From: Liolophura sinensis
Lineage: Eukaryota > Mollusca > Polyplacophora > Chitonida > Chitonidae
Reading direction: 5' to 3'
DNA length: 64,000 nt
Assembly: GCF_032854445.1 (NCBI RefSeq)
Contig: NC_088306.1
Coordinates: 16,711,764 to 16,775,763 of the forward strand
The notes under the pieces were generated by a model. It saw nothing but the letters and a program-made list of their open reading frames with translations. It was not told where the DNA came from and did not search any database. Each line of letters begins with the position of its first letter. Position 1 is the stretch's first letter. Below, in pieces: positions 10,801 through 58,110 of this stretch. Made by a program: the position numbers and the translations under genes.

Positions 10801-13800
10801 ATCTACATTAATTTATAGACTGATCTAATGTTGGTTGGTCTGACATATTAAGGCAATAAGCAGTTGTGGACGCTCGTGCTGCTATATGTGCAGTCTTATG
10901 TAGCACATATTGAAATGACTGATGTATATTTTTGTGTAGCTTGGTATGAGTAATACTACAGCGTGGCATACACCACCACTGATCAAATCAACTTTTGCAT
11001 GCGTCAGGCTGCCCAGGACAAAGAGGAGCTCCAGAGGGAGGGAGACGAGTTAGATGCTCGGATACGCAAAGCCGAGCGGGAAATCCGTGCCCTGGAGAAC
11101 ACACTGAAACTGATGAACAGTCGCAATGAGACGTACAGGAAAAGCTTCAACAAAGTCACAGATACAAGTGAGTTGTGTCCCATTTTTTTAATGCTGAAAA
11201 CCACTCATGATGCCCTACCCAGTCAGATTGTACTGATTTTCTGGCCAGTCAGTACTCCCATGTATGCAGAAGGCTATATATCTAGATACTAATCCAGTGG
11301 GGTGTGGCAGGATTTGTGGGATGTTTGTGGGAGATTCACATGCTATCAGATAGACTTGTGTTTCACATCGTTTTTGAGGAAAATTCACGAAGTGTATCCC
11401 TGATCCCTAATGGATGACTGTTTTCTGCTGGAATCAGGTGATGAGATGGAAGAGAAGCAGCAGCTGGAGGAGCAACTGAGAGCGGTGATGGACAAGTACA
11501 AGTACAAAAGGCGTCAGATCCGAGAGCTACAGGAGGACTTACAGGTCAGAACATTTATACATGTCTACAATACATACACAGCTAAACTTTCACTTTCACT
11601 TTGAGTGTGCCATGCAGGTGATGTAGAGTACTGAACAGAAAGCTTGTTACACAGTACCTTCCAGTTGCAAATCCGTGTAGTACTGCACAGTGCCTGCCTG
11701 GTATCACTGTACAGCACTGTCTACAGGTAGTTGCACCTTACCTTTTGACTTACAACTACAAAGTCTGTCATTTCCCCTGTGCTTGTGGCCTCTGATATTG
11801 ATACTGATATGAAATTGTCACACAGTGACAAGTAACTGCTGCAGAGAACTGCCTTGTGTTTGTACCTTTTTTGAACAGCGACTCACAGTTATGAACCACT
11901 CAGTTCCATATTCAAGTCACAGCTTTGTTTATTTCACTGGTTCTTAAATCCTCCTGAAAATTTTTTCTCACAAATCTCATGTTTCTAATTTAGTCTTTGT
12001 GGCACCCATTATGTTTAATGTAATGTTTTCTCTCTGTGAGGGTAAAATCTAAATAGGTGTTTGTCTAAGTAGGTGTATATGGTTTTTTTTTATTAAGGCA
12101 GATGTTTTATTTTCAGACGATGAGCAGTACTCTGGATAACCTGACCCGTGATGAAGACGCTTATGTTGAGCTGATTGAAGAGAAAAAGGTGAGTAGACAG
12201 GGTCAAGTATTTTATAACTTACTTACAGGTATCAGTGGTAGTCGGGAATATCTACATGTAACTGTAGGTTGAAACTCAACCTGCTCAGTGGGAAACCTTT
12301 CCTGCCTGAAGTAACTTGGACCTAAACTGTGTTGTTCATTGTTCAACTCGTTGTGTTGTACTCGTATAACACCAGAACATGTCAGCCTGGCATGGGCCCG
12401 AATTGCCGTTGCATGGGAACCATTTCACCGGTTTACCTGAGCATAGTCTATGTCTTGCACTACTGTCCCGCCAAATTGCTAGTATCCCCTCTCGCATTCA
12501 CTGAGTATCAGTTACATCATTTCAGTTCGACCTGTAAATTGGTCTTTCTACAGTTGATTAGTGATATGGTGTGCCATCTGAAGACAGTTTGTATTAGAAG
12601 GAAGTGCATTTTCAATGTTCATTTCCCTGTGTTTTTTAATGTCTGACATGTTGTTTCCCTCAGCTTTGTGCCTTTCACATGCCCGCCTATTTTATCTCTC
12701 ACACGTTGTCTCCCCCCACCCTGTTTTGTTTCCTCATTTTATATTTCACGTTTTTTCATCGTTTTATGTCTCACATGTTGTTTCCTCGTTTTACTTCAAA
12801 CACATTGTTTCTCTGTTACATGTCTCACCTATCTCTTCCTGCTCTAGTCTAAGGTGAATCAGCTGATGAAGGAGTTGGATGACCAGAAGGCCAAACTGGA
12901 GCGTGTGGCCAAGCAGAACGCCAAGTACACTCGGGAGCTGAGGAACCAGACCAAGTCTAAGGATGAGTCCCCACAGGAGGTACGACAGTTATCTGGTCAA
13001 TCATGGAATTTGTGTCCAGAACGTTTGTGAACAATTCACCCAGAGGACAGATGGATCCATTGAACATAATCCAGACTGCTTGCCTAAGGTTATTTTATGT
13101 GGTCATGGTGTATTTTGAAATGTGCATATTGTGCCTACTATAAAGTTGTTTGAAAATTTCAGTGTATTTGTAAAAGAAAGGCTATGGCAAGTGTTCAGTA
13201 AGACCTTGGGGCCTCGGAGGCCCTTTGGTTAGGGTGCTGGTGCAGCACATTAGTCCAGGAGCTTGTCACCAATGCGATCCAGCTCATGCTGGCTTCCTGT
13301 CTGGACGTACATGGGAAGGTTTGCCTGCATATGGTCATAATGTTTCCTTCGGGCCTGGTTTCCTTCCCATCATAATTCTAAACGCTGTTGTATAAGTGAA
13401 ATATTCTTGAGTACAGCGTAAAACAGGAATCAAATAAATAAATCAGTAAGATTTTCTGTGATGTTATGATTGTTGATGGCATGTTCTTGGGTGTCAAATA
13501 GCCATTTATCTGTAAAAGAACTGTTTTTGTCTTTCTTCAGCGTGATTTTGAGGTGCGCGAGATGCGAGAGTTCAACAAGACAGTGATGAAGCAGATTGGG
13601 GATGTGGTGAACCAGCATCAGGACCTGGGGGAGATTGTCAGCCTTTACTTCTCACAGGTCAGTCTTTGGGGAGATTGTCAGCCTTTACTTCTCACAGGTC
13701 AGTCTTTGGGTAGATTGTCAGCCTTTACTTCTCACAGGTCGGTCTTTGGGTAGATTGTCAGCCTTTACTTCTCAAAGGTCAGTCTTTGGGGAGATTTTCA

Positions 13801-16800
13801 GCCTCTACCTGTACTTCTCACAGGTCAGTCTTTGGGGAGATTGTCAGCCTTTACTTCTCACAGGTCAGTCTTTGGGGGAGATTGTCAGCCTTTACTTCTC
13901 AAAGGTCAGTCTTTGGGGAGATTGTCAGCCTTTACTTCTCACAGGTCAGTCTTTGGGGAGATTGTCAGCCTTTACTTCTCGCAGGTCAGTCTTTGGGGAG
14001 ATTGTCAGCCTTTACTTCTCACAGGTCAGTCTTTGGGTAGATTGTCAGCCTTTACTTCTCACAGGTCGGTCTTTGGGGAGATTGTCAGCCTTTACTTCTC
14101 ACAGGTCAGTCTTTGGGGAGATAGTCAACCTCTACATGTACTTCTCATAGGTCGGTCTTTGGGGAGGTTGTCAACCTCTACATGCACTTCTCACAGGTCA
14201 GTCTTTGGGGAGATTGTCAGCCTTTACTTCTCACAGGTCAGTCTTTGGGGAGATTGTCAGCCTTTACTTCTCACAGGTCAGTCTTTGGGGAGATTGTCAA
14301 CCTCTACATACACTTCTCACAGGTCAGTCTTTGGGGAGATTGTCAGCCTTTACTTCTCACAGGTCAGTCTTTGGGGAGATAGTCAGCCTCTACATGCACT
14401 TCTCACAGGTCAGCCTTTGGGGAGATTGTCAGCCTTTATTTCTCACAGGTTGATCTTTGGGGAGGTTGTCAGCCTCTACATGTACTTCTCACAGGTCAGT
14501 CTTTGGGGAGATTGTCAGCTTCTACATGTACTTCTCACAGGTCAGTCTTTGGGGAGATTGTCAGCCTTTACTTCTCACAGGTCAGTCTTTGGGGGAGATT
14601 GTCAGCCTTTACTTCTCAAAGGTCAGTCTTTGGGTAGATTGTCAGCCTTTACTTCTCACAGGTCAGTCTTTGGGGAGATTGTCAGCCTTTACTTCTCGCA
14701 GGTCAGTCTTTGAGGAGATAGTCAGCCTTTACTTCTCACAGGTCAGTCTTTGGGTAGATTGTCAGCCTTTACTTCTCACAGGTCGGTCTTTGGGGAGATT
14801 TTCAGCCTTTATTTCTCACAGGTCGGTCTTTGGGGAGATAGTCAACCTCTGCATGCACTTCTCACAGGTCAGTCTTTGGGGAGATTGTCAGCCTTTACAT
14901 GTACTTCTCACAGGTCAGTCTTTGGGGAGGTTGTCAACCTCTACATGCACTTCTCACAGGTCAGTCTTTGGGGAGATTGTCAGCCTTTACTTCTCACAGG
15001 TCAGTCTTTGGGGAGATTGTCAGCCTTTACTTCTCACAGGTCAGTCTTTGGGGAGATAGTCAGCCTCTACATGCACTTCTCACAGGTCAGCCTTTGGGGA
15101 GATTGTCAGCCTTTACTTCTCACAGGTTGATCTTTGGGGAGGTTGTCAGCCTCTACATGTACTTCTCAAAGGTCAGTCTTTGGGGAGATTTTCAGCCTCT
15201 ACCTGTACTTCTCACAGGTCGGTCTTTGGGGAGATTGTCAGCTTCTACATGTACTTCTCACAGGTCAGTCTTTGGGGAGATTGTCAGCCTTTACTTCTCA
15301 CAGGTCAGTCTTTGGGGAGATTGTCAGCTTCTACATGTACTTCTCACAGGTCAGTCTTTGGGGAGATTGTCAGCCTTTACTTCTCACAGGTCAGTCTTTG
15401 GGGAGATTGTCAGCCTTTACTTCTCACAGGTCAGTCTTTGGGAAACTGTCAGCCTCTACACGTACTTCTCACAGGTCAGTCTTTGGGGAGATTGTCAGCC
15501 TTTACTTCTCACAGGTCGGCCTTTGGTAGATTGTCAGCCTTTACTTCTCACAGGTCAGCCTTTGGGGAGATTGTCAGCCTTTACTTCTCACAGGTCAGTC
15601 TTTGGGGAGATTGTCAGCCTTTACTTCTCACAGGTCAGTCTTTGGGTAGATTGTCAGCCTTTACTTCTCACAGGTCGGTCTTTGGGGAGATTGTCAGCCT
15701 TTACTTCTCACAGGTCAGTCTTTGGGGGAGATTGTCAGCCTTTACTTCTCACAGGTCAGTCTTTGGGGAAACTGTCAGCCTCTACATGTACTTCTCACAG
15801 GTCAGTCTTTGAGGAGATTTTCAGGCTCTACCTGTACTTCTCACAGGTCAGTCTTTGGGGAGATTGTCAGCTTCTACATGTACTTCTCACAGGTCAGCCT
15901 TTGGGGAGATTGTCAGCCTTTACCTCTCACAGGTCAGTCTTTGGGGAGATTGTCAGCCTTTACTTCTCACAGGTCAGTCTTTGGGGAAACTGTCAGCCTC
16001 TACATGTACTTCTCACAGGTCAGTCTTTGGGGAGATTTTCAACCTCTACCTGTACTTCTCACAGGTCAGTCTTTGGGGAGATTGTCAGCTTCTACATGTA
16101 CTTCTCACAGGTCAGTCTTTGGGGAAACTGTCAGCCTCTACCTGTACTTCTCACAGGTCAGTCTTTGGGGAGATTGTCAGCCTTTACTTCTCACAGATCA
16201 GCCTTTGGGGAGGTTGTCAGCCTCTACATGTACTTCTCACAGGTCAGTTTTAAGAGTCTGGGTCAGGCTTTAAGCTTGATCTGAAGACAGAACTTTGTAC
16301 TGGTCTGGTACTGGCCACGTACAACTCATTCAGAAACACCCAGACTCATCCTGACTTAGAGCCATGGCCAAACCAGCAAGATCTTCATTAGTGTGTAACG
16401 TCAAGCTTTGTTTCAGAACATTGTTAATTGGCATTTTACTGCATAACTATTGTTATTCTCTTAACTGTTATTCATTCTTTAAGCCCATGTCAATCTGGAC
16501 TTCTTTTCTCACCAGGCTAATCTTCCCGCCCTGACGCCCACCCCGAGGGGTTCCCGATTAGGCAGTGCGCGGAGCAGCCTCTCCTCTGTGCGGAGCATTC
16601 GGTCTGTCGCCTCCACTCAGAGTCGTCCCAGCCCTGTTGATATTGGAGCAGAACTAGGTAAGAACAAGGTGATTGAAGGGATTCAGGATGTCTGCTGTGA
16701 GATATCGACAAGTACAGACTATGCTTTGGTTAACACTTAGCTAACGAGGCATAACCAAACATGCAGTTTACCCAGGAAATTCTGTCAGCCAATAGGCATT

Positions 16801-18863: not shown

Positions 18864-18995
18864 TTTATTTTATTTATTTGGTTGGTGTTTTACTCAAGAA
18901 TATTTCACTTATACTACAGCGGCCATCTTTACGGTGGGAAGAAACCGGTCAGAACCTGGGGGAAAACCCTGAACTATCCGCAGACCTGTGACTCA
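18864..18995 (-). mobile_element. Truncated tRNA-derived SINE
   Basis: The tail and body of the recurrent SINE are present in minus orientation (TTTATTTATTTGGTTGGTG, then ACTCAAGAATATTTCACTTA). The tRNA-like head is missing. Confidence 0.75.
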
Positions 18996-19004
18996 TATAA
19001 TGCA

Positions 19005-19110
19005 CGTATGTATGTATGTATGTATGTATGTACAAGGAAGCTTGGGGCTTTACATCGTACCCCAAAAATTTTGAGTCGTATGACAACGAGGCATGTGCCT
19101 CTTGGTTAGG
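19005..19110. mobile_element. Fragment of second SINE-like family with GTAT tail
   Basis: A (GTAT)n run is followed by GCTTGGGGCTTTACATCGTA and a GTATGACAACGAGG motif. It matches the family seen more completely at 62,989-63,318 and in part at 42,421-42,520. Confidence 0.6.
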
Positions 19111-20300: not shown

Positions 20301-20561
20301 TCGGGTCATGCATTAATTCACCATCAGCATCAATTGTCCCCTAACAACAACCGACACATCTGGTAAACACATTCTCGTGCTCCGTCAATTCTCCCTTCCT
20401 CCTGACATGCTTAATTAGGCAGGCACACTATTACAATTCCAGGCATTGATTGTCTACACAACTGACTGCACAATCCCAAACAAGTGCATATCACAAGCCA
20501 GATAAATGTAACTACTAATGTAAATTCTGAGCCTTGGAAAGTTTCGTGAATGGATTATCAC

Positions 20562-26030: not shown

Positions 26031-26033
26031 CAT

Positions 26034-30200: not shown

Positions 30201-33200
30201 TGAGACGGGTGACTGGTAAATTAATCTCAACAAATGTTGCCTAAGTCACATGATACAGAAGGACTTTTTTACCTTTAGTGACAAAAGAATTTCCACCTCG
30301 AAATTCCCAAATTGTCTTATTTATCCTGTTTCAACATATTGCCAGTATACAAACTTGTCACAAATATAATTAATCAGGCTCAACTTATTTTCTGCTGTTG
30401 ATACCATTACTCCACACTTGTATAGGCCAATACAAATAGTTATTAAGAAATTCATCCAAGACTTTGCCTAAATTTTCTCCACACAAACTGTAAGGCATGA
30501 CTTCTAACAAGCCATCTTTCTTCTGTTCAATGGCACTGAGTATGCTAGAAGGCCCTAACTACAATAAATGACATAAAATTTCTTCCACAAATTAAAGCGC
30601 ATTTTTAGAGGCAAACAAATGTCACAAATCTTATTTTTGGTGCTGAAACTTTCAATTTTCCAATAGAATATCTTCCCATATTCCAAGCAAACCTCAAAAC
30701 GACGTTCTAAAATAAATAGAAATCTCAGGATCCTGTTAATCATGGCCAAAATCTGTAGTCATTTAAGGTAGTTTAACTTGTGTCTGCAGACACACACACA
30801 CACATACACACACACACGACTGACTAAACCTGCACACTGTGGTTACCGTTTGAGGTGGATGATGAGAGTATCGGGATATCGCCAGACTGTCATGGTTTTT
30901 CTCGCTCTCTGATTCTGTGTGCATTGAGGGCAGTACCAGGGGTTGTGTTCATCTAATATCTCACTGTAAACAACAACAACATCACCCATAACTGAGGGTA
31001 CTACCAGGGGTTGTGTTCATCTGATATCTCACCGTAAATACCATAAAAATTCACCAAGTGTTTTGAAATCAACATACGACTTTTCATATATCTATATATC
31101 TGATTGTCACCTAACACGTTACTGAAGAATCTAATTATACTATTTTTATTTTCACTAACATGATTGTGAGCAGGTTTATGGGTGCAAGAAACAGAGGTGT
31201 TCAGGATAAACAACAGGCCTTTGGCAAGTTACTCACAGACTTTCCCACATGTGATATGCACACACACATATACAGCACACTTTTGGTGGACAAGTTGTGA
31301 AAAGTGGGAAGTGGGAGATGGGGGAATTTACAAATTCCACGTTCTCATCAAAGTATAGTTTTATACCTACATCTTGTATGTCCAAGCAACTAACAGAGAG
31401 GCTTTTAACTGCACATGTAGTTCTTGAATATACAAATACATTTTTTAAAAAACCTACATTTTAGTGTACATATCGTATCCTCTCCCACATATCCCAATTT
31501 TCACCAAAACATTCCTGTTTTAGAAATTAACATATAGGCCCTCACTATTTTCTTATTCCTCAAATCTGTATCCATTTCCAAGCCACACTCACCTTTCTGT
31601 AAATGCTCTGAAACAGTCATAAATGGTGATGGGGTCACGTGGGCGGAGTTTCTCCATTGACTTGTGATCCTGAGTGGGCGGGGCTTGTACCCCTGACAGG
31701 TCTGACACAGTGATGGTCAGATGGTCACCAGGCTGGAGGTTCACCTCTGAATCTCTGAGCACCAGGCAGCCTGTACAGTGAGCCGTGAAACCACACCGTG
31801 AACAGTGCAGGCCCTGGGGGGAAACAACAACAACATGTGAATCTTTTTAGTAACAGCGGAAATGGATAATACTGGTTTGCTGTGTAATACTTTACTAAAG
31901 ATCGTATCACCTTGCATGACAGTGCCCAGGTTTATGAGAGCCAGGAAAAAGGTCAGTGTAAACCCCCTCCCCGACACCTGATTCTGACTGCTGCTCTGAT
32001 GTTCGGTCAACATGAGCTGATTTGAAGACAATATCTGCTGTGTTCAACACAGTTCCCTGTGCGCATCTTGCTATTAAAAGTAAGATCTATTAACTGGTCC
32101 ATATCCCAGTCTCTCTACATTGTTTGTCCAATCAACTGGTTAGTTTTGAACTATGAGAAGTCAAGACTGCTTGTTACTTCACCAATTTGTGCTCTGAAAA
32201 GAAAATTCTGACAGGAATGAAGGTCTCACCTATCCACTCACAGAGATGTCATGAGATAAGAAGGAGGCAGGTTTAGCTTCAAACATGTCAGACATATTTT
32301 GCAACAAGTCAGAATTTAGAAACACATGCTAGGTGACAGTTTAGCGAGACTGTTGTCAGAGCTGAAATAGTTTGAACTTATCAGTCAGCCAGGTCCCAGG
32401 CTCATCCAACCAATCAATAATAGGTCATGACAAAAACTCACCTCTATTCCCAGTACAGGCACATATCCACATTAATGATTTTCAACACACATACCAGTCT
32501 TACAGACAAACGGACTGAGAGTTACATGTACATGCACAGAAGCACATAGAAGACAACAACATGGTGGTATTAGTACCTGTCCGTCTGTGAGAGAGATGTT
32601 GAAGGTTGTAGGGAAAGGTATGATGGTGTCAATCAGATCGTATAGGTCCTGCCCCCTCATCCTGCTGTACAGGTAGACCACATTAGGGTGGGAGAAGAGA
32701 TGGAGGCCTTCCCCATCCTGGTCAGAGTCCAGACGATATGCCACATGGACTGCTAACAGCCTACAGGTAAAAACAGGTAAAACAAACAATTAAAGTTTGC
32801 TATACAGGTAGACCACACTGGAGTGAGAGAAGAAATGGACGCCTTCCCCATCCTGGTCCGAGTCCAGACAATATGCCACAGGGGACTGCTAACTGCCTGC
32901 ATGTAAGAAACAGGTAATACAAACAATAAACCTTGCCATACAGGTAGATGACATTGGAGTGAGAGAAGAAATGGACACCTGCCCTATCCTGGTTTAAGTC
33001 CACATGAAATGCCACAGGGACTGCTAACAATAAAAGCTTGTAGTACAGGTAGACCATACTGCCAGACAATGTTCCTCTCATCAAACTAAAACAGTTTGAT
33101 CTATTAGCATCAGGTCAGACAAGTTTACCTATGCTGACTGCAATGCCAACCTTCAAGTTATATTCAAGCACCTCATAAAACTGTCACACAAGGCAGGACG

Positions 33201-36200
33201 CTGTCTTGTGTGACAGTGTGACGCTGAGCATTGAAAGAGACTGACCTTACACTACCTGAGTCTACTCGCACACAGAACCGAACTTACCTCGTTTTGGAGT
33301 TCCTGTTACTTTGGCCCCCCAGAGGGAGAAAGCCTTCCACAGGGTTGACTGGGATAGAGCACACCTGCACAAGGAAACATACGGCCTTCATCAGTGATCT
33401 ATGATCAAAAAGTATGGAACCAGTAAATTATACTTTGAGTTTGAAGAACTGTATTGACTGCTGAGTTTGGCTAAAAGTTTAAACATAAAATATGACCTAT
33501 TACCAGTATTAGCTAATACACTTTTGAACAATGGGGCCCTGATGAACTAGTGCGTGTTTGTTGTCAAAGAAAATTCTTTGGAAAATAACAGATAACTCAC
33601 TGGACAGGTAAAAGCAACATCTCCATAATGTTTGAATGACATCTGCAAGAAGAAAAATCAATACAATATATACATATATATGTAAACTGATTAATATTCA
33701 ATACTAGAGCCTGTGCTTTTATCTAAACAGCTGTACAAGAAGACACCAGATACCCAATAGCTACTTCACACCAGCTTGAGGAAGGACTACAGCAACACTA
33801 CATGAATGGGCCCCAGGAAATCATTGCACTAATCTTTGGTGGTTAAGAATCAATTGTGTCTCTAAGAGTAACCACAACTGCTGCATCTAGAAAGAAAATG
33901 CCCATTCAACTTGTTTATGCTATAACATTGTTGGGTCATTTGCTGCAGACTGTCTGCAGAGGAACAGCTCTGACAAAGTGTGCCCTCACAGAACAAACTC
34001 ACCTCCAGATAGCTCTGACAAAGTGTGCCCTCACACAACAAACTCGCCTCCAGACAGCTCTGACAAACTGTGCCCTCACACAACGAACTCATCTCCAGAC
34101 AGCTCTGACAAAGTGTGTCCTCACACAACAAGCTCGCCTCCAGATAACTCTCACAACAAACTCGCCTCCAGATAGCTCTGACAAAGAGTGCCCTCACATA
34201 ACATACTCACCTCCAGATAGCTCTGACAAAGTGTGCCCTCACACAACTAACTCATCTCCAGACAGCTCTGACAAAGTGTGCCCTCACACAACAAACTCAT
34301 CTCCAGACAGCTCTGACAAAGTGTGCCCTCACACAACAAACTCACCTCCAGACAGCTCTAACAAATTATGCCCTCACACAACAAACTCACCTCCAGACAG
34401 CTCTGACAAAGTGTGTCCTCACACAACAAACTCACCTCCAGACAGCTCTGACAAAGTGTGCCCTCACACAACTAACTCATCTCCAGACAGCTCTGACAAA
34501 GTGCGCCCTCACACAACAAACTCACCTCCAGACAGCTCTAACAAATTATGCCCTCACACAACAAACTCACCACCAGACAGCTCTAACAAATTATGCCCTC
34601 ACACAACAAACTCATCTCCATACAGCTCTAACAAATTATGCCCTCACACAACAAACTCACCTCCAGACAGCTCTGACAAAGCGTGCCCTCGCATGACGGA
34701 TGAACCATGAGATCGCTGTCCACCATCTCCTCCAAACAGATTGCACATGAACGCCACTGCTGCGTGCTAGGAACGTCTACCTGCTGGGATGGTGGGTCAA
34801 CCACAATATCCATGGTCCAGGTTCCAACAACGTAATCTGAAGAAGTCACTTCTGATCTGGATCCTGACGTAGATGACCAAGCCTGGACACCAGTGATATC
34901 CAAATCTGGAGAATTCATTCTCGGCGTTTCTCCATCAAAACCAGCCGAAAATCCAGATCCTGCCACCCCTGCTGGTAGCATGGGCTCATCCAACTCAAGC
35001 GGAAGTCTCTGCTCCAACACAGCTGGTGATATGTCTCTTGTAGTGTCTGGCATGTCAAGTCCCTCCTTGTCTTCTTCCAGTTTGTGAGTGGAAAACAAAC
35101 CCACATTGGAGAAAATGTCCTGCTCTGTGGATTCCGCAGACGTGCACGTCGCTGTTGATGAACTGCACCTCATCTCATACTCCTGGCCAGTACATGTATT
35201 CAATAGGCAGGATTTATCAGTAGGGGATTGGTCCATGGATTCAATCTCAGTTATCTCCCCTTCAGAGATCAATGGGGGAGGTGCTGGCAGCATATTGAAG
35301 GCGTAAATGAGACGTGTAGAATCATTCACATAACCCAACATCACACTATCATCCTACAAAACAGAAGCACTGACGTTAACATTCAATACACACATGTAAA
35401 TACCACAACACAATACACACATGAAAATACCAGACAAAATACACCTATTGTAAATACCAGAACATAATACACACAAGTAAATACCACAACACAGTACACA
35501 CATATAAATACCAGACAAAATACACATATTGTAAATACCATAACACAATATACCATATGTAAATACCACAACACAGTACACATGTCAATACCAGACAAAA
35601 TACACATATTGTAAATACCATAACACAACATACCATATGTAAATACCAGAACACAATACACACATGTAAATACCAGACAAATACACCTAATGTAAATACC
35701 AGAACACAATACACACACGTAAATACCAGACAAAATACATACATTGTACACACCAGAAAATAATGCACATAAGTTCATGTACCAGAAAACAATACACATA
35801 TGTAAATATCAGAAAACAATACACATGTCTAAATATCAGAAAACAATACACATACATAAATACCAGAACACAACAAACATATGCAAATTCCAGAAAAAAA
35901 ACAAACATATTGTAAATAACAGAAAACAATGCACATACATAAATATCAGAAAACAACACACTTATAGTATGTAAATATCAGATAACAACACACTTATAGT
36001 ATGTAAATACCAGACAACAATATATGTATGATGAAAGCTTGTTTTCCCTCAAAGGCTAGTGCCAATGTTCCCATTGTTTTGTGTATACACTGTTTCAAAC
36101 AAATTCAGCTCGTTTTCCACACCTGCTAAGCTCTTGACCACAATGAACCCAAAGAATTTACATTTGGTGGCAAGGGTACCAAAGAGCTCGCTTAAGAATG

Positions 36201-47037: not shown

Positions 47038-50000
47038 ATGACCAGCATGGATATCCTAAGGCCGCCTATCATACAGATTGGCAGACGGCGTTACAGGAGA
47101 AACCCAACATCACTAGAAGGGTCAGAGGTCGAGCCAGTGGAAGACGAGGTCATTTTTACAGGTGAAGTGGTGTGGAGAATATTTTACTCTCACAACAAAG
47201 GATAGGTACACTAGGGGATGCCAGACAAATTAGTAAAAATCTGACTATGGCTTTATGAATGTCTTGAATGATTATATGCATAATTATATCTCGCAATTGG
47301 CTGATAATTAAGACATCTTTGCGGGCCCAATGGTTTACACTACATGTATTTTGCTTGAGGCCATTATACCTTGACCATTGAGATCGCTCCTTTGAAACAA
47401 GCCTTTGATAGCATGATTACTCTCACTTAATTTTAATAACATCAGATCTGGTTCTTACTGTTCTTTGAAATACTTTTAAGGGCTTTGTCTTGAATTTTGT
47501 TTTAAGGCTTCAAGACCTTGAAAGTCCTTGAAGAAAGACTTAAATTCTGAGATTTCCATGAAAGCTCATGATTTTTCAATTGTAAACATCCTGTTTTGAT
47601 ATACAGTTCAAAGCTTATTGATGTTAGCTGTGGAAAAGAAAAATGAAGAATATGTATAATTTTTGATTTAGTTATGTTGATAGGTTTTTCTTGAAATATC
47701 ACCATTTTTTTTTTCTCGAAATATCTTTTCTTGCAATTTTGGCTTTTTTCTAGAGAAATCTTGAGAGACTCAAACTTCATGTGGATCAGTCTTTTTGGTT
47801 GGATTTTAGGTACTTGAATTCGAGAAAAAGATTTTCTTATATGACTTTCATGCAGGGACCTGACTGCAGTTGGTGGACATATTCTTGAATAATATGTAAG
47901 CTGGATGCCGAATACATGAACATAATTCGATGTGGTGCAGTTACATGGTAGAAAATGTGAAAAGTTTTTGACTGAGAATTACTTTCTTCCTTTAGATAAG
48001 CCAAAAGGAGAAAAGGTTTTTTTTTCAATTTTTTTTTTTTTTTGACTTAATTTTAAAAAGATGTGGAAATTACAGGATAGATTTTTGCATGTATCTGCTA
48101 GCAGTTAATTAAAAAGAAACTGTAAGGTACATGTATGATATTGTAAAATATCTCTCTGTATCTCTCCACAGAGGGAGGGATTTGTAGCACATGGGATGAT
48201 GAGGTTTGTGATACCAGCGCCAGTTTAAATATTGAAGAAATGGACAGTGGTCAATTTCGACATTTCATGGACGTCCCCAGCCCTTATTTCAAGTTTCTTT
48301 TCGGGAGGAAAGGCGAGACAAAAAGAAGGTTGGAGACAGAGACAGAAACTCAGTTGACAATCCCGGGACATGGAAAAGAGGGGCCTATAGGTAAACCAGC
48401 AGTAATCTCTGAACTGCACCTGACTCTTTTTCCCATGTAGAGTGTTTATTTGCATCTCTTGCTAAGGCCACAGCATTTTAAAATGTTGCTTTTACGGGAT
48501 GGAGAATATAGAGGAGTGTTAGAGGAGGATATAAAACTGAAAGTAAAACCTAAAAATCATGTAATTCTGGGAAAATATGGAATATTTCCTGGGCAAGATT
48601 CCTGTTGATGACATGTTTACACTCTTAGAAAGCCTTAAAAAAGCATGAGAATCATAAACTCATCAAGATCGGAAATAAGAAAAGGTAGGTTTTCAGGTTT
48701 ATTTCATTTTTTGATAGAGTTGGCTCACCCAACTCTGACTTTTTATACATTCAAGTTCTGTGTAGATCATTTCTTATCCAAGATAAAAGTCATCAGTCAT
48801 GTTCGTTGGCATTTTAAGTTATTGTAGGTCACCACAGGAAAGGTGTGTTGTCAGCCAAGACACGCATAGAGTTGTTAGTGAACTCTGCACGCCAGAAACT
48901 ACCATCCACTCACTTCCTATCTCTACCTATGAACAGTCCGGAAATCAAGGACAGTTTTCAGGATTTCAAATCCGAAGTTCTGCTACACTGTGATGGGGTA
49001 AGGCCTGCTTAGATTAGGCGTAGTATCATTTTAAAATTCTCTTGAGAAACTGGTTTTATGAAGTTTTTATGAAGAGATATGGGCATGAAAGAGGAGTGAA
49101 TCATGCCTGAATGGTTAAGATGCTACCTCTCATTTACTAGATTACACAAGGTTCAGGTTCAATCCCAGCTTTGAACAGTGAAGTTGTGGATTCTCTTACT
49201 GTTCGTGAGGCCTTGTTGACGTGTTGATTAATGTTGTACATCACTGTTCACTACATCGCGTTTCAATTTTTAACATTTGATGAAAGTACGTGTATTTCAC
49301 CAAAACTTCAGCATTTTTCAAGGGACACATTTCTCTAAATTCTGACTCAGTCTGATTCATTCACCTTATAAGGTCACTTGGGGGTTGTTTTGTGAAGTTT
49401 GATGAATTTCTTATTTGAAAAAATTCAGTTTGGCAACACAATCATCATTATAGCTTTTATGTGCATCTCAGAGTGAACTTTTACTTACCAAACTTAAGGT
49501 GAAATACAGTAACTGTAATGAACATGTAAACAAGCAAACCTATCACATTTGGACTTGTGTTTGATTTGAAGGCGCGAGGTTTAGATGGGACGATATTCCA
49601 GAACCCTGACAAGCTACACCTGACGCTAGGCATGCTGGTCTTGTTGAGCGACGCTGAGATCAAAGCTGCTCGTAGTCTCCTCCAGGACTGCCAGGATTCT
49701 ATAGTTGAGTAAGTGGTTTATTCTCAACTGATTCATAGATTGTGTACAATGACCCAGGAGCATCTCACCATTGCAGTCGCTGTGAGTTCAAGTCCAGCAC
49801 ATGTTGGTTTCCTCTCCAGCCTTACGTGGGAAGGTCTGGCCCGGAGGTTCTGCCCCATTTCCTCTCACCATAATGCTGGCCATTGTTGTATATGTGAAAT
49901 ATTCTTCAGTACGGTGTAAAACACCAATCTAATAACTAAATCATAGAGTGTGTTAACTTGCACGGAAGTCCGTGGCTGGTTTCTTCTGCCAGAAAGCATT

Positions 50001-51453
50001 GTTCTCTTTGTGGCTGATCAACCCCTGACCAATGAGATAGCAGGGACAAACTGAGCTCTTGGTAGTTCGACAACAGCTTTAAATCAGGAGGTTTGTCAGG
50101 TACCTAGTGAAGGGTGATGATTTTCTCCAGGTACTCCAGTTCCATCATCCATATTCAGAACCTCACCTCTGTCACAGAAGTGCAGAATTCTTCACCACAG
50201 CATTTAAACCCAGATGAATTTTAAAGCAAAAAAGGAAAACTGCTCTCTATCACTTAAACTGTATCATAATTCATAACTTTTTTTTGTAAGTTCTGTCTTT
50301 TTCCCAAAGCAAAGAAACTTTAAAACTAAAAATAAAATCAGTTATATTTAACAAATTAACTGAACTTGTGGCCATTGGATTAATGTTGGTGTCCACTGTC
50401 ATGTTACATCATCAGTCAGATTTTCCAGTAAGTTATGCAACGATATATCAATTTGTATCTTTTGCTTATGCCCCCGCAGTCCTATATTGAAAGCAGAACC
50501 TTTAATTGCACAAGTACAAGGCCTTGAGTACATGAACGATGACCCAGGTGCTGTGGATGTCCTGTATGCTAAATTAGACCTCCTGTCATCATCAGACAGG
50601 TGAGTTGTGATGTAAAACAGGTACCATGTCCCTAATGACTGAGGTATGAGCTCTAGGTACGTGAACGATGATCCAGGTGCTGTGGACGAGTGAAAGGCAC
50701 CTTACGGCACTTATGTGTCATTATTTGCCATACATGTACAACCTTTTCCTTTCCTATTAAAATACATGTACAACCTATTCCTGCCCTAATTAAAATACAT
50801 GTACATCCATTTCCTGTCATTAGCACAGTACATGTACAACCTTTTCTGGCCATTATTACACTGTACTTAATGTGCAACATTTTTTATTTGCAGACTGCAG
50901 ATTTTAGTGGAGAGGCTAGTTGAGAAGTTTGTGGCTGCTGGACTGATGCAGAGAGAGCATGAGCGTGTCAAACTCCACATGACGGTGATCAACTCTCTGA
51001 TGAGGAAGGATCCCACTGGTGTCGCAGTATCCAAGGGAGACAACAAGAAAGGACCCCCAAGAGAGTCGTTTGATGCCACAGATATTCTGAAGGTACTGTA
51101 GGTACCTGGTCTTAGCTTTGAAATTTTCTAATTTAATTTTCGATTTTGTCAAGCAAGACTTAAGCCAACATGGTCAAAGAACTTTATACTTTAATTTAGG
51201 TTGATAGTAAAATAAATGAAAGCTTTTGAGTACAATGTTTAACAGTGATGAAATAAAATAATTAAATAAGTAAATAAATATTGTATCATTGTTTAATATT
51301 AGCAGTGAAATGTCTTTTGTTTCATTTCTCCTGCAGAATTTTGGCGATGTTGACTTTGGTGAAATTCACTTGAAGGAGCTTCACTTGTCAAAGCGGTACA
51401 CAACTGATGATAATGGATATTATGCCTGTGAGGGACGATTGTTTCTGCCGTAA
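47038..51453 (+). CDS. ASCC1: ASCC1 orthologue, KH and 2H-phosphoesterase-like protein
   Basis: ASCC1 is a subunit of the activating signal cointegrator 1 complex, which works with the ASCC3 helicase and ALKBH3 in transcription coactivation and alkylation repair. Exons: 47038-47161, 48172-48390, 48828-48997, 49572-49708, 50480-50599, 50894-51092, 51337-51453. All are GT-AG with consistent phases, 361 residues, close to the human length. Seen directly: N-terminal MDILRPPIIQIGRRRYRRNP (human begins MEVLRP), KH GxxG loop as GRKG at about 86-89, HLT at about 187-189 and HMT at about 285-287 (the paired HxT motifs of the 2H fold), IFQNPDKLHLTLGMLVLLS, and EYMNDDPGAVDVLYAK. The first ATG after an in-frame stop is 47,038; the ATG at 47,047 aligns with human Met1 and may be the true start. 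The terminal exon end is repeated behind the stop. Confidence 0.96.
49103..49178 (+). repeat. tRNA-like sequence, probably a SINE head or tRNA pseudogene
   Basis: TGCCTGAATGGTTAAGATGC resembles an A-box region of a Leu/Ser-type tRNA, and GGTTCAGGTTCAATCCCAGC contains a B box. A clean acceptor-stem pairing is not evident, so a functional tRNA is unlikely. It lies in ASCC1 intron 3. Confidence 0.4.
49748..49946 (+). mobile_element. tRNA-derived SINE in ASCC1 intron 4
   Basis: GACCCAGGAGCATCTCACCA, B-box GAGTTCAAGTCC, the body with ATAATGCTGGCC and a degenerate AATAACTAAATC tail are present. The A-box end is truncated. Confidence 0.8.
50657..50688 (+). repeat. Copy of an ASCC1 exon-5 fragment in the next intron
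   Basis: The 32 bp repeat 50,528-50,559, the exon-5 bases encoding YMNDDPGAVD, with three to four substitutions. It lies 57 bp beyond the exon-5 donor. Confidence 0.85.
50729..50870. repeat. Short tandem repeat, TACATGTACAACC core
   Basis: Four copies of an about 35-40-bp unit (ATACATGTACAACCTWTTCC with spacers) fill the 3' part of ASCC1 intron 5. Confidence 0.8.
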
Positions 51454-51466
51454 AGGGAAGTGACTC

Positions 51467-51712
51467 TTGTCAAAGCGCTATACAACTGATGAGGACAGTT
51501 ATTATGCCTGTGAGGGATGATTGTTTCTGCCATAAAGAGAAGTAATTCTTGTCAAAGCGCTATATAACTGATAAGGACATTTATTATGCCTGTAAAGTAC
51601 GATTGTTTCTGTCATAAAGGGAAGTAACTCTTGTCAAAGCGCTATTCAACTGATGAGGACAGTTATTATGCATGCAAGGGACTATTGTTTCTGCTGTAAA
51701 GGGAAACAACTC
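51467..51712 (+). repeat. Three extra 82-bp copies of the ASCC1 terminal exon end
   Basis: The last exon stretch encoding LSKRYTTDDNGYYACEGRLF plus stop (51,385-51,466) is followed by three direct copies at 51,467, 51,549 and 51,631, each exactly 82 bp. Each copy keeps a TAA at the matching position, but all lie after the functional stop and so in the 3'UTR. A unit of 82 is not a multiple of three. Confidence 0.93.
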
Positions 51713-53100
51713 TTACTTCTGTACGCTTGAAGTTATAACAATGGTTTCTCCTTGTAACTTTATTAAAGAGGACATTGATGATGGATAAAAAAACTTTTTG
51801 TAAATATTCATAATGAATTAAGAATTAATCATATTTACATGTATGGTAGAGAACTGAACGCCCTTGCGGGTCAAGTGTGGATATAAAAATGATCACTGTA
51901 GTCTCTCACCATGGAGTTTGTGAGTTCAAATCTTTTATTGTCCCATCCAAATTCACCATCCTCAGGAATGTCCTGGACCCCTTACATGTGTACCCTTACA
52001 ACTGGACCTTTTGTCAGGAAGATTGTCCAGTACTCGGCTTTATGGTGGTGCACCTGTGCGTTTCTGTGAATCGACACTTTTTCCATTAGTCACAGAACAG
52101 AAAATAGGGGTCGGAAAGACGCACAAGCTTTAGTTTTCGCAGAGCCTTGCTCAGTGTCCTCTATCCAGAATTGCAACAAATGTAAAACACTTTTGACTGC
52201 AATGTGAAAGACCAGTCATCTGTATAAATGTTTGTATGTGAAATGTGGAAAAGTAGTAGGCCTATGTAAATACCTCAATCCATCAAACCCGATTTTTATC
52301 TCCCCTGTACAAAGTGCAGGTGTAGCTATTGTCATACCTCAAGCGTACAGCGCATGCGTCGCTCTCCACCATTTGCTTTACATCACTTCCACCATCAGCT
52401 AATTTGGTACAGGAATCTCGAACAACGCCGAGGTCACTGGGGTCACGGTGATGAGGTAGGAAGTTATGTCAGAAAATACAAACAGTCTGTCTCTACCTTT
52501 ATAATAATGCTTTATACACATGCATTCTCTTTATCTAGAGGATGCTCAACATGATTCTAACCAAAATCTAAAACAATTTTATTGGTGAATGCTGAGTAAA
52601 TAGTTCCGTAGGAGGACAAAAGTGTTGAGGCTAAGTCTAAAGGTGCGTCCCCCAGGCTCAGAAGGTCAAACTTGTCTGTTGGTAGCGGTGATGTAAAGCG
52701 AAACGTAGAGAGTGACGAATGCGCTGTAAGCAATATGCATCGGCGTCAGTGTCCGATATAAAAGCACTGTGAAACAAAATGCTTTGGGCGGCATCTTAGA
52801 ATTTATTGTATGTATTGAGTACACACATATAAAACACATTCACACGAAAATGATGTTCTTTAGTTGAAGCTCTTTGTGCATATTAATTCACAAACTCACG
52901 GCTTCAGTACTTTATATTCGGAGATGAAGTTTCGCATTCATATAATTAAAGACAGTATAGCATAAGGAGCAATACCAGAGCAATGACGACAGTGTGATAG
53001 CTGCCAAAAGGTCACACGTGAAAACCTGTGAAATACGGCCTCTTGACAATTAGAGGCACCCTCAGTCAGGGTTTTATTATGACTTTTCATTCCTCTCCTA
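51713..53100. other. Downstream of ASCC1, no supported gene
   Basis: A possible poly(A) signal variant (ATTAAA) lies near 51,761. A weak plus-strand open segment at 52,354-52,450 ends at a GTAGGA donor-like site, but its protein is unrecognisable and other frames are equally open. Confidence 0.4.
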
Positions 53101-53103
53101 CAG

Positions 53104-53119
53104 GCTAGCTGTACCAGAT
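53104..53119 (+). other. Candidate 16-bp microexon
   Basis: A strong acceptor (CATTCCTCTCCTACAG) and a strong donor (GTAAGT) bracket 16 bases. There is no flanking gene model to confirm it. Confidence 0.2.
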
Positions 53120-53442
53120 GTAAGTATTGACGTTATACTGCAGGGAGAAGTACGAGGGGGTGGGGGGTGGGGGGATTATACAGTAATTACTTGGGCAGTG
53201 CAAGGCGCAAGATTATGTTGTTGCTAAAAGTAAACAAACAAGCTTTTCAGGTGTGAACTCGCATGTTTATTCATATTCTGAGCAAGCAGAAAAATAGAGT
53301 CATTTAAAGACAATGGATAACACAAAATTTGCATCATGACAATGGTACATTATGAAAATGGACAGCATTTCATTAAGCACTAAGCACTAAATTACTTAAT
53401 TACTCTATAAGGTATTAAAATAGATTTAAGTAAATCATATCA

Positions 53443-53665
53443 AAATGGCTCCTGTAGTGCTTCGTGAAATGCTTCTGTAATGCTCCATGAAAATGGACAC
53501 CATGTCATTAACCATTAATGGCTCCTGTAGTGCTTCGTGAAAAGCTTCTGTAATGCTCCATGAAAATGGACACCATGTCATTAACCATTAATGGCTCCTG
53601 TAGTGCTTCGTGAAATGCTTCTGTAATGCTCCATGAAAATGGACACCATGTCATTAACCATTAAT
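53443..53665. repeat. 73-bp tandem repeat, 3 copies
   Basis: The unit reads ATGGCTCCTGTAGTGCTTCG, TGAAATGCTTCTGTAATGCT and CCATGAAAATGGACACCATG. The three copies are nearly identical. Confidence 0.92.
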
Positions 53666-54082
53666 TTGAAAATTATGTATAAACTGAAAGAGAAACGTAT
53701 TAAAATAGATATAAGTAAATGATATCAAAATTGATTCTATAAAAATGAATAGCATAAAAGTGCAAAGTTTTCAGTATTCAGGCTGTCGCCAAGACGATCT
53801 GTACAAACTCGCGCCAACTGATATCTGGCCAGCAATACTGTATGTGTCTGTCTATACATGTACTTCCCCCAGATTGCAGTAAAGAAAACAATGCATATGC
53901 GTATTTAATAGCATTACTCTGAATTACCTCCCTTGTTACAAGACATCGACTATTACCTAACGCAAAATTCGAGGCGTGAGACTACAAGAAGTGGGACCTC
54001 GCCTTGTAAAGTGAGATAGTCATACCTTACCCGAGACTGGAAAGCCCTTAAAACCAAGCAGTTACTTAACGTTGTCTCCCAG

Positions 54083-54154
54083 GCAGTCGAATTTCGATAT
54101 GAAAATCCACAGACTGATAACATCTACAGCCAGGTTCACGGAAGTTCTTTTTGA
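54083..54154 (+). other. Candidate coding segment of an unrecognised gene
   Basis: After a GTCTCCCAG acceptor-like site, 23 codons read with tyrosine motifs (YENPQTDNIYSQVHG) and end in TGA. A second forward frame is also open and ends at a GTGAGT donor. I cannot say which, if either, is used. Confidence 0.2.
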
Positions 54155-54439
54155 GCGTGTGAGTAGGAACTGTTGTTTTGTGCATTTTCTGTGTTATGTC
54201 CATCACACAACAACATCCTAAGCCCCAAGCTGTTGGCACGTTCGTCTGATCTGGAGGTAGAATGGACTGACAAAGGTGTCTGATAAATCAGAACTTAGTT
54301 CTTTATGCCGGTATACCGCTCCCATCCGGGTCGGTTCGGTAACGGTACTGGTAACGTGGTTATCGCATGGACATACTTCATTTCACAGATCACGTAGTAA
54401 GAATCCATCCCACTGATACATGTATAATAACCAATTGAT

Positions 54440-55040
54440 ATTGATAACATATTATTATCAGATGGGAAAGCAACATGTCAAACTATACCCCCGTCACCAA
54501 CATCGGTATCCTCGTCACAATCAATATTGTTATATCCTCATCATCAATATCGTTATCCTCGTCATTAATATCGTAATTATATCCTTGTCACCAATATCGT
54601 AATTAATTCCTTGTCACCAGTATTACTATATCTCGTGATCAGTACTATTATGTCCTCATCACCAATATCGTAATTATATCCTCGTCACCAATATTGTTAT
54701 ATTGTCGTCACCAATATTGTTATATTCTTGTCAACAATACTGTCATATCCTCGTCCCCAATATCGTTCTTGTATTGATCGCCAGTATTGTTATCCTCGTT
54801 ATCAATATTGTGATATCCTCGTCATCAATATCGTTATCCTCGTCACCAATAACGTAATTATATCCTCGTCACCAATATCGTAATCATATCCTCGTCATCA
54901 ATCTTGTTATATACTTGTCATCAGTATTGTTATATGATCATCATCAGTATAGTTATCTCCGTTATCAATATCGCTATATCATCATCACCATCCTCGTATC
55001 GTTATCCTCGTCATTGATATGATCGTGTTCCTCGTCTCTT
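54440..55040. repeat. Degenerate minisatellite with TCCTCGTCACCAATATCG core
   Basis: More than 20 diverged copies of 18-33 bp units run up to a pyrimidine-rich acceptor-like site at 55,046. Being pyrimidine-rich, it could have grown from a polypyrimidine tract. Confidence 0.85.
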
Positions 55041-55046
55041 CCTCAG

Positions 55047-55158
55047 TATCCCCAGTCACAGAGACAATCCCCATAGTATATATGCTCCACCTGACGTCAG
55101 TGTTCCTCAACTGGAACAATTCCAGTGTCTGGATCAAGGAGAGTCTGACAACACATGA
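55047..55158 (+). other. Candidate terminal exon of an unrecognised plus-strand gene
   Basis: An acceptor (TCTCTTCCTCAG) is followed by an open stretch. In one frame it reads RDNPHSIYAPPDVSVPQLEQ and ends in TGA at 55,156; a second frame is also open. There is no family match and no joined upstream exon. Confidence 0.22.
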
Positions 55159-56025
55159 AGATCAGCAGACTACATGAGATAACTATGTTTAATTGTTGTA
55201 TTCTATCTGTTTATTTTATGAAACGTGCTAACGTCATACTTCCAATACACAACGATACGGACAGGTTAATGTAGGTACCCAAGAAACTACTTCACCTCCT
55301 AAAGAATCAGAAATAACCCAAGAAACAGCTGGATAACGTTGGATTCGAACTCCCAGTTTTATTATGCTGGATACGGTGTTGTCCCTGCATCTCCCAAACT
55401 ACCGCTTTGGATGAAACTTACTCTACATCGTGCCTATCATCTGCACTTGTGCATGTTTAAGCTTAATGGCAACCGGGTAATTATTTTTATAATTTCCCAC
55501 CTTTTAGAGATTTGCGTAATATACTGCTTTTCCATGTATTCTGATGTCGCCTTGGCAACTGTTCCTAAAGAAGTGAACCTATTTCCATGCATCGTAGCAT
55601 CCATATTTTCTATCATCTAAACTTGTGCATGCTTAAGTTAAAATACAATCGGGTGATTATTTTCATATTTACTCCCATTCAGGTACCTAGCGCGGTGTAA
55701 TGGATTTTAATGTACTCAGATTTTGTCCGTGCGGCTCCTGCTAAAGTATAGCACCAATTTCCCTGAAAATATATATAAATCTTTTTTATTTTCTTTCTTT
55801 TATTCTTGGAAATGTTGGGAGATGAAAAGGAGGTCTTTCGGACATCTGGATTCTAGATTTTTTAATACTTGAAGTTGTCTTGAACATTTACAATAAAATG
55901 GAAAATTTGAGTTTAATTTAAAACCTAAGTTCAGGAATAACACGAGCTATGAAAACCGAAATAGTAAAAAGTTTCATTAAATAACAATGCAACAAAATCA
56001 CCTGGTCCCTGATTTGAAAACTTAC

Positions 56026-57353
56026 CTTAATGGCACTCCTGGAGATGTCTTTACCTTGATGACATTGTTCATAGCTGCTACTGGATTCTGAATGACTGCT
56101 GAGAGACACACCGTCTTGGTCGGAAGAACCAACAAAGTAAACTTCAGTGTAGTTGGGATCGTACGGAAGATCGGGAAGTTTCCGTGTGTCGGTGAACGGA
56201 ACTACTGCAGTTTCAAGGTTGTGCAGTTTGAAAGATGTTTGGAGCTTGGACGATTTCCTGTGGGCAGTGCTCTTGTTACGCGTTTCACGCATAGAACCGG
56301 GTCTGGTGACGTCAAAAGCGTCAATGACGTCATCAAACATGGGATCTCTTACGCCAGACTTCTGACTGGGATTTCTAACTTGGAAGAATAGACCACCGAC
56401 TCCATGCTGTCTGTAAACTTTCTTTCGCCATCTGCAGGGGGAAAAATCAAGAAGTTAAGATTGAGACAGGGAGGTTGTGCTTTTCAGAAAATTCAACCTT
56501 ACAAAACATCAGACCAACGCTTACTTTCATGGCACTCACTCTGACTTTCAAATACTTACATCTACAGCCAAGTGACATGTCGACTGTTCATTTTGCGACT
56601 TTGTAAACCGTTGTCTCTGAGCTGTGTTTTGTTTTATGTATTTTTCACGAGTAACGTGGATCCTATATGAATAATTAGCACATCTAATTGAGCCTTTGAC
56701 CATGCGCTTTGGCCATACATATATACGTTATATACGTTAGTTTTTTATACACAGTGTCAGACCGTTCGTAAAGACATGCCCTCGTGGTTCCCACCTTCAC
56801 TTATTGTAGAACATCTGAACTTGTGTGTGCATGAGGTAAGTCTATCAACTAAAGATGAATCGGAGAATTTGGGCAACAAATCGATTAGCCCAAATCCAGT
56901 AGAATTTTTGTACTGTATCAGCCTCTTTTGCTCATGTGTTACTGTCCAGTATGGGTAACAAATTTCCTAAAACTCATAAAGCGTGTCGCACAATCACTAG
57001 TTCAAATTTTAGAATCATATTAGCGCTATAAATAGTAAAAGTACCGTGCTGAAAGGAATCCATTGGCGAATGTGACTTTTTTTTGCAAGTCTCCTCTTTA
57101 CAGACCGATACAAGCTCACTGTATTCCCAACGCCACAGAAGAGAATAAGTTATGTACATCTCCTTCACACTAATTTGTGTTCCTTTATTTCATAAAACAA
57201 TCTGACTATACCGTGTGCCCATGCTTCAGGTATGTTGCTAATCAAACTGTAAGCTTACCTTTTCCTCAGGATGTAGACAATCAGCACGATAATGACGACC
57301 AAGAAGACGCCAGCCAGACTTCCCAGTATAATAGCCAGCATTGTAAATCGACA
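56026..57353 (-). CDS. Single-pass membrane protein, transmembrane and tail exons (partial)
   Basis: Two exons splice in phase: 57353-57259 and 56431-56026. The first encodes a strongly hydrophobic helix (LAIILGSLAGVFLVVIIVLI) ending in YILRKR. The second continues WRKKVYRQHG, a basic stop-transfer flank, then a cytoplasmic tail of about 130 residues with DLPYDPNYTEVYFVG and a Ser-rich segment. The exon ends at a GTAAGT donor, so more tail exons lie further on and were not found. The acceptor of the first exon is weak (CCAAG with little pyrimidine tract). Alternatively translation starts at the ATG at 57,341, giving a signal-anchored protein with almost no ectodomain. The family is not recognised. 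Confidence 0.5.
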
Positions 57354-58110
57354 CTTGGTCCCTCACCTGTATGCAGTTACTTCTGGTACTGGTGTGTAAT
57401 TTCAAATTATCCCTCAAATGTACGGAAGTGCTCTTGTTTGGAAAAGTATGTAAAAGTGATACTGGATCCTACACCTCTAAGCCGTTTTCCTGGTGCCGGT
57501 GTGTTATTACAACGCTTGGTCCTTCAGCTGTACGGAAATCTTCCTGTATTGGCATATAATTATGATACTGGATCCGTCAACTCCACGCAGTTCTTCTGGT
57601 ACTGGTGTGTAATTACGACACTTGGTTCTTCAGCTGTACGCAGTTCTTCTGTTACTGGTGTGTAATTACGACACTTGGTTCTTCAACTCCACGCAGTTCT
57701 TCTGGTACTGGTGTGTAATTACGACACTTGGTTCTTCAGCTGTACATAGTTCTTCTGTTACTGGTGTGTAATTACGACACTTGGTTCTTCAACTGTATGC
57801 AGTTCTTCTGTTGTTGGCGTGTAATTACGACACTTGGTCCTTCAACTGTACGCAGTTCTTCTGTTACTGGCGAGTAATTACGACACTTGGTTCTTCAATT
57901 GTACGCAGTTCCTCTGTTATTGGGCGTGTAATTACGACACTTGATTCTTCAACTGTACGCAGTTTTTCTGTTACTGGCGAGTAACTGTACGCAGTTCTTC
58001 TCTTACTGATGTGTAATTACCACACTTGATTCTTCAACAGTACGCAGTTCTTCTGGTGCTGGCGTACCATCATAGTACTGGGTTTCTCAACTGTAAGCAG
58101 TTTTCCTGGT
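57354..58110. repeat. About 14 copies of an about 53-bp unit carrying the TM-exon boundary
   Basis: The unit contains GTACGCAGTTCTTCTGTTAC, TGGTGTGTAATTACGACACT and TGGTTCTTCA. The bases spanning the transmembrane-exon start (AAATCGACACTTGGTC, then TGTATGCAGTTACTTCTGG) match the unit, so the array grew from, or into, that exon boundary. It runs away from the exon on its upstream side. Confidence 0.85.

Follow-up and report, generated by a model that had tools for sequence, protein, structure and literature searches.

The window analysed here is a stretch of 64,000 nucleotides from the chiton Liolophura sinensis (C12:16711764-16775763, forward strand), in which exon edges of neighbouring genes occur in tandem copies together with their splice sites. 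Positions given below refer to the window unless C1 or C12 is named, C1 being scaffold_1 of the Liolophura assembly (96,433,062 bases). The species was first published as L. japonica and the name has since been corrected to L. sinensis (PMC12441733); according to an extract of PMC11068029, its assembly consists of 632 scaffolds with 609.5 Mb, based on 14x HiFi coverage with a mean read of 8,347 bp. Four genes of the window were modelled. The NCBI L. sinensis protein of CCDC39 (P0001, 946 aa) is encoded without a mismatch by 22 exons, and that of a USP gene with a RING-like insert (P0121, LOC135479234, 1388 aa) by 16 exons; in both models the donors are GT or GC and the acceptors AG. The models of ASCC1 (7 exons) and of a gene with a transmembrane segment (TM gene, 2 exons) were built by hand from open reading frames (ORFs) and splice signals, and the ASCC1 model is backed by the Pfam families AKAP7_NLS and KH. 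Together the gene models provide 88 splice junctions.

For the detection of duplicated edges, 40 nt of exon and 12 nt of intron were aligned for each edge to the adjoining 1 kb, and z values were obtained from shuffles of the same flank. With the first exon set, six of 74 edges stood out (z 14-35) and a seventh reached a z of 4; the sixth outstanding edge is the end of the ASCC1 coding sequence (CDS) and not a splice junction. Among the 88 splice junctions five stand out, with scores of 84, 80, 72, 64 and 48, the next score being 26. Four of them are clear (CCDC39 13657 and USP 34661, 32760 and 30963; z 23-35 versus the shuffled flank), and the TM exon edge is weaker (z 14). From the seven cases listed in the original prediction these four junction-spanning cases and the weaker TM case remain, whereas the two ASCC1 cases are derived from exons and include no splice edge. 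Both edge types are duplicated as stated there, the 3' edge at CCDC39 13657 and USP 34661 and the 5' edge at USP 32760 and 30963.

At all five junctions the copied unit crosses the junction. At USP 32760 it starts within the exon about 93 nt from the boundary, and at the other four junctions this distance is about 25-38 nt; the earlier claim that the arrays start at the true exon boundary is thus incorrect, as the units begin within the exon and run across the boundary. Because the unit spans the junction, the copy joined to the exon body is the outermost one, and the authentic site is exon-proximal with the extras on the intron side. The apparent anchoring on exon boundaries is a matter of geometry.

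The largest array belongs to the CCDC39 exon at 13541-13657 (plus strand), with the authentic donor CAG|GTCAGT after 13657. Between 13628 and 16243 (plus strand) 62 exon-end copies were counted including the authentic one, which leaves 61 extra copies and agrees with the roughly 60 copies predicted. The unit comprises the last 30 nt of the exon and 10 nt of the intron, and a 46-nt variant contains 6 nt more; the 61 unit lengths are 40 nt (33 units), 46 nt (23), 41 nt (3), 45 nt (1) and 39 nt (1). GT is kept at 60 of 61 unit starts. The constant AG at the copy ends is no separate evidence, because AG was part of the pattern used for splitting the array. Units of 40 and 46 nt, the two prevailing types, are interspersed in mixed order, and the copies differ by many substitutions. 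An assembly artefact is the least probable of the explanations weighed: long tandem arrays are easily mis-sized, and coverage was 14x HiFi (PMC11068029, extract), but the mean HiFi read is longer than the 2.6-kb array, the many substitutions in mixed order are unfavourable to it, and the cases with one or two copies are hardly assembly errors.

The annotated CCDC39 protein reads FSQ|ANLP and therefore uses the exon-proximal donor. This exonic copy is also the conserved one, as the alignment with solved CCDC39 chains (PDB 9fqr, 8j07) runs through the junction and the three molluscan orthologues examined have ANLP at this place, preceded by MYFSQ or MYFAQ. On a crude scale, 42 of the 61 decoy donors score at least as high as the authentic donor (4.9). 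None of the 61 would give a stop-free in-frame extension, since 59 add a stop and two shift the frame. Scored as acceptors, the copies reach a median of 6.1 compared to 5.4 for the real acceptor before 16516, and the CCDC39 array is the only one with unit boundaries matching both the donor and the acceptor consensus (dual-specific boundaries). As a separate observation within 13658-16243, the 46-nt type would encode SLYMYFSQ, compared to SLYFSQ in the exon; the array may either retain a variant lost from the exon or have acquired that variant.

The next CCDC39 exon lies at 16516-16657 (plus strand). An origin of the whole intron from a tandemly duplicated AGGT segment of the exon is highly improbable. 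The AG|GT unit boundaries with a pyrimidine-rich end are those required by the intron gain model (PMC3443670, extract), but the array stops at 16243, which leaves about 270 nt of intron free of array units, and the ten best-scoring edges, down to a score of 21, do not include that at 16516. The acceptor before 16516 is no copy of the unit, so that the two splice sites do not both lie in copies, and intron gain was rejected for CCDC39. Elsewhere in a CCDC39 intron (6092-6388) a 59-bp x 5 tandem array with 99% matches was observed away from exon edges; being nearly perfect, it is probably very young.

Three junctions of the USP gene (minus strand) are affected. The exon at 34661-35353, which ends in SCLE| within the exact map of P0121, has a duplicated 3' edge. 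Its array (33964-34690, minus strand) contains 16 units, the number predicted, of 45 nt each except for one of 28 and one of 49 nt, and the unit is made up of about 28 nt of exon and 17 nt of intron. The unit starts (n=16, the first being the authentic donor) read GTGAG in eight, ATGAG in five and GCGAG in three cases; GT is kept in 7 of the 15 decoys. The units end in CTGTCTGGAG and are not pyrimidine-rich, and none of the 15 decoy donors scored gives a stop-free in-frame extension. The annotated protein reads SCLE|MSFKHYG, which corresponds to the exon-proximal site. A further observation in 33964-34690 is that donor position +1 belongs to the two most variable unit columns (5 of 14 full-length units differ), whereas it is nearly invariant in CCDC39.

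The exon at 32577-32760 (minus strand) is duplicated in its 5' part, and P0121 uses the exon-proximal copy (SKTR|LLAVHVAYR). Alignment to the edge of this exon located two copies upstream of 32760, within 32803-33029 (minus strand). One (32803-32936) comprises 40 nt upstream of the acceptor and 93 nt of the exon (117/135 identical), and the other (32939-33029) contains exonic sequence only (74/91 identical). The predicted duplication of the 5' half is therefore real, with two extra copies instead of three. At the exon 30847-30963 (minus strand; FTES|EILDEHNP in P0121) the single extra copy of the 5' edge that had been predicted was found at 30994-31055 (minus strand); it consists of 23 nt of intron and 38 nt of exon with 52/62 positions identical. 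Head-to-tail copies with variant units, as in minisatellites, are present in the CCDC39, USP 34661 and TM arrays. The unit at USP 32760 exceeds the usual minisatellite size (~136 bp versus ~10-100 bp), and at USP 30963 there is just a single extra copy.

It is very unlikely that the decoy arrays are functional and under selection, with dual-specific AG|GT sites serving for stepwise intron removal or for buffering of splicing. In favour of such a role are the retention of GT in CCDC39, copies that match the score of the real acceptor, and the use of dual-specific tandem arrays in human UBC (PMC10809524, extract). However, GT is lost from most USP 34661 decoys, young arrays retain their sites without selection, and many unit columns outside the splice site are as invariant as the splice site itself. 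Steps of 40 nt are also below the usual intron size, as introns are usually longer than that. No test gave a pointer to selection for decoys, including the tests of reading frame at both genes.

The remaining cases are less typical. The exon with the transmembrane segment (57259-57366, minus strand) was placed by the hand-built model, and its junction is less certain because the acceptor fell below the cut-off of the splice-signal model. Upstream of its 5' edge a 53-nt array extends over 57564-58119 (minus strand). The prediction of a weaker array of about 14 copies was right about its presence and strength, but 10 copies were obtained at a score of 40 or more. In ASCC1, the supposed duplication at the end of exon 7 is an 82-bp x 4.0 array (51384-51714, plus strand) spanning the last codons, the stop codon and the 3'UTR of the terminal exon (51337-51453, plus strand), where AKAP7_NLS matches nearly to the end and an in-frame stop follows; no splice site is involved. 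The fragment of ASCC1 exon 5 exists as one 30-nt copy (50657-50686, plus strand, duplicating 50528-50557, 28/30 identical), but it is a piece of the exon interior without a splice edge. Neither ASCC1 unit covers a splice site, and both were rejected as splice-edge cases.

The original prediction had argued that random minisatellites should not fall on exon boundaries this often. Self-similar islands are frequent in this genome: the window contains 22, two blocks chosen blind have 18 and 33 per 100 kb, and two 20-kb flanks have three and five, corresponding to 15-34 per 100 kb across the five stretches. From the unit lengths we calculated the chance that a junction lies inside the founder unit of an island, allowing 16 nt of each unit for overlap. 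This chance amounts to 2.18% per junction for the window, compared to 2.36% for the 240 kb scanned elsewhere. With all islands counted, 1.92-2.08 of the 88 junctions are expected to be hit (P(>=5) 0.046-0.060; P(>=4) 0.13-0.16). If units longer than 140 nt are dropped, the longest junction unit being ~136 nt, the window rate gives 1.48 expected hits and P(>=5) of 0.018; at least four hits have a P of 0.064-0.129 at the window's own rate. The window was picked because of the pattern, and all its P values are uncorrected for that choice. Its own rate is the fairer comparison, because the question concerns junctions and not repeat-rich regions.

Two other calculations were discarded. A null per base (13.4% of positions repeated versus 5 of 72 junctions) was dropped because every copy was counted instead of the founders; taken literally, it would suggest a depletion at junctions. 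A first founder null with 72 junctions and some unit lengths taken by eye (1.4-1.6 expected, P 0.013-0.024) was superseded. Ab initio exon prediction (score >=6), of which 16-18 of 19-23 predictions overlap known exons while many known exons are missed, yielded nine predicted exons in the 240 kb, too few for a test; 2 of 18 edges had a copy, both in doubtful predictions.

On the genome scale we used the 5'-splice-site word CAGGTAAGT, with its reversal TGAATGGAC as control, and the second splice word AAGGTGAGT. CAGGTAAGT occurs 9,807 times and TGAATGGAC 4,849 times. Compared to a first-order Markov expectation, the frequencies are 1.97x for CAGGTAAGT, 0.72x for TGAATGGAC and 1.05x for AAGGTGAGT, and about half of the CAGGTAAGT occurrences are therefore probably real donors. 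Pairs in tandem at a distance of 24-54 nt were found for 411 of 9,807 CAGGTAAGT (4.2%) and 226 of 4,849 TGAATGGAC occurrences (4.7%). Array loci on C1, grouped by eye and related to occurrences scaled from the genome counts, numbered 15/1519 for CAGGTAAGT, 11/958 for AAGGTGAGT and 9/751 for TGAATGGAC. The ratio of CAGGTAAGT to TGAATGGAC is 0.82 (0.34-2.14), or 0.88 (0.40-2.12) if AAGGTGAGT is pooled in. Among the first 100 listed occurrences and with a linkage of 350 nt, multi-copy clusters made up 6/48 and 10/47 for the splice words and 7/59 for the control (pooled P 0.49). The data do not show that junctions are hit beyond chance: the window has a nominal excess, five against 1.48-1.92, and the genome-wide CAGGTAAGT ratio shows none.

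Exon-edge arrays were also seen on C1, where we inspected 0.9-kb stretches covering the upstream ends of 15 CAGGTAAGT pair loci and four additional clusters, extended by 0.75 kb at four of them. Nine of the 15 pair loci begin in an apparent coding exon (L035, L036, L038, L040, L041, L042, L043, L045, L047). Pfam supports L040 (GH31, 7e-13) and L047 (EGF, 3.7e-6), and L036 matches the PDB entry 'Helicase-like protein' with an E value of 2.4e-6 and Pfam weakly; we take this exon to be part of Mot1/BTAF1. L035 has a weak PDB match (E 0.037). The exons of L038, L041, L042 and L043 were called from the open frame, splice signals and coding score, and that of L045 by eye. Pfam searches with eight array-adjacent exons gave no match for L035, L038, L041, L042 and L048, and a PDB search with L041 gave none. 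No exon was seen at L033, L037, L039, L044 (a pair only, no array) and L046, and L034 is unsure; of the additional clusters, L049 showed no exon and L048, L050 and L051 may have one.

Two side observations were made on C1. The 45-bp array of L034 (C1:2202450-2203350) is open in one frame with VSTVLTTDDNTHCLQ-like repeats and shows CTGCAG|GTAAGT at several unit boundaries; it could be coding, or these could be dual-specific sites. At C1:14949719-14951562 a match to the dynein heavy chain domain DHC_N2 is interrupted by several stops and extends over ~380 positions of the profile within 1.8 kb. Compressed into this length it contains hardly any intron, and it may be a retrocopy.

Ordinary birth of minisatellites by chance, tolerated at junctions, probably explains the arrays at splice junctions. 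Spanning units, a repeat background, exon-proximal sites in the annotated proteins, frame-breaking decoys and arrays at other exon ends are all observed. Minisatellites, that is tandem duplications of ~25-140 nt with later expansion, would arise at a high rate and roughly regardless of gene structure, and the copies of a founder segment that by chance included an exon-intron junction would carry the splice site. The authentic site would remain the copy attached to the body of the exon, and the extras would fall on the intron side. If the spliceosome keeps the exon-proximal site, extra units would merely lengthen the intron, and for this reason arrays of up to dozens of copies would be tolerated. 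Birth and growth may proceed through slippage, unequal exchange or template switching; chance would account for the number of arrays, and exon definition and proximity for the decoys being ignored.

Several results weigh against this explanation by chance. The five hits represent 2.6-3.4 times the window's own expectation (1.48-1.92; P 0.018-0.046). The rate of the 240 kb depends mainly on one block (4.2% in the C2 block; 1.0% in the C1 block, 1.2% and 1.5% in the flanks), and without units >140 nt it predicts only 0.74 hits (P(>=5) 0.001). For AAGGTGAGT the pairs amount to 244/6,053 (4.0%) compared to 103/6,501 (1.6%) for its reversal, a 2.5-fold difference. Since donors and background words are not separated in the word test, up to about 3-fold donor preference would pass unseen, and control words can also arise by mutation within an array. 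Finally, the 9 of 15 exon-edge loci on C1 exceed a rough equal-rate model. A rough model of the origin of words within arrays, which is based on guesses, indicated some excess at donors.

These points would fit junctions as a genuine but modest hotspot for tandem duplication, through AG-GT microhomology or breaks linked to transcription or splicing. We regard such a hotspot as possible but doubtful. The rate of arrays per CAGGTAAGT occurrence equals that of the control; given the overall upper limit of 2.1 and half of CAGGTAAGT being donors, up to ~3.2-fold at donors is still allowed, and a general excess of the size seen in the window would be compatible with this test, although none was seen. 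The AAGGTGAGT excess need not concern donors, because this word, at 1.05x Markov, is a poor donor tag, and the gap between two words of which neither seems donor-rich indicates the spread of the pair measure. The window was selected for the pattern, and since both edge types occur, a single donor-specific mechanism would be insufficient. Somewhat more doubtful again is a modest (<= ~3-fold) hotspot that leaves a large genome-wide class of exon ends trailed by many decoys of equal or better score, which the spliceosome would resolve by position alone or, for arrays like that of CCDC39, by stepwise dual-specific removal. The original prediction had offered a process favouring exon ends, or decoys that are tolerated or selected. 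Decoy arrays do exist, also elsewhere, and are tolerated, as the annotated CCDC39 and USP models skip the copies at four junctions; a preference for exon ends is doubtful, and no test pointed to selection.

Other features of the window include an ORF at 62556-63059 (minus strand), which presumably resembles the GIY-YIG endonuclease part of a Penelope-like element, and tails like GTATAAGTGAAATATTCTTGAGTAC...AATAAATAAAT at more than one place (13340-13450 and 49860-49940), which we take to resemble a common molluscan SINE. An Rfam search of the window returned zero matches.

The unusual feature of these arrays is size, a single donor of a conserved ciliary gene being followed by 61 decoys. Even as ordinary minisatellites they provide a natural experiment, as the CCDC39 donor competes with 42 equal-or-better downstream decoys (by the crude score) at a spacing of ~40-46 nt and is the one used in the annotated protein. 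If ~1-2% of junctions carry arrays, an extrapolation from the founder rate, then position, spacing and strength would become separable in splice-site choice without constructs. A junction excess, if true in a full scan, would indicate that a mutational process is linked to splicing.

A narrow literature search found no report of chiton exon-edge arrays, from which we make no claim of absence. Gao and Lynch (2009) and Zhuo et al. (2007) reportedly described internal gene duplication and introns from tandem arrays. Tandem duplication of partial exons within genes is common to such cases and ours, but no new coding exon or intron arose in the chiton window. According to an extract of PMC2812944, minisatellites in human segmental duplications have units of ~30 bp on average, and some lie at exon-intron boundaries, as the chiton repeats do, and alter splicing. 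The human minisatellites described there vary between recent paralogs and often give alternative transcripts, whereas the chiton arrays lie in conserved genes, contain up to 61 extra copies and are skipped in annotated CCDC39 and USP. The AG|GT unit boundaries of CCDC39, potentially donor or acceptor, resemble the dual-specific arrays of human UBC and VCX3A; the UBC units are coding and either kept or removed (PMC10809524, extract), whereas the chiton units are intronic and frame-breaking, and the annotated proteins show no use of them. Intron gain via tandem genomic duplication likewise begins with a duplicated AGGT-bearing segment (PMC3443670, extract; see also PMC4974935). In that model the duplication creates an intron, whereas in chiton CCDC39 it enlarges an intron whose acceptor is no copy of the unit.

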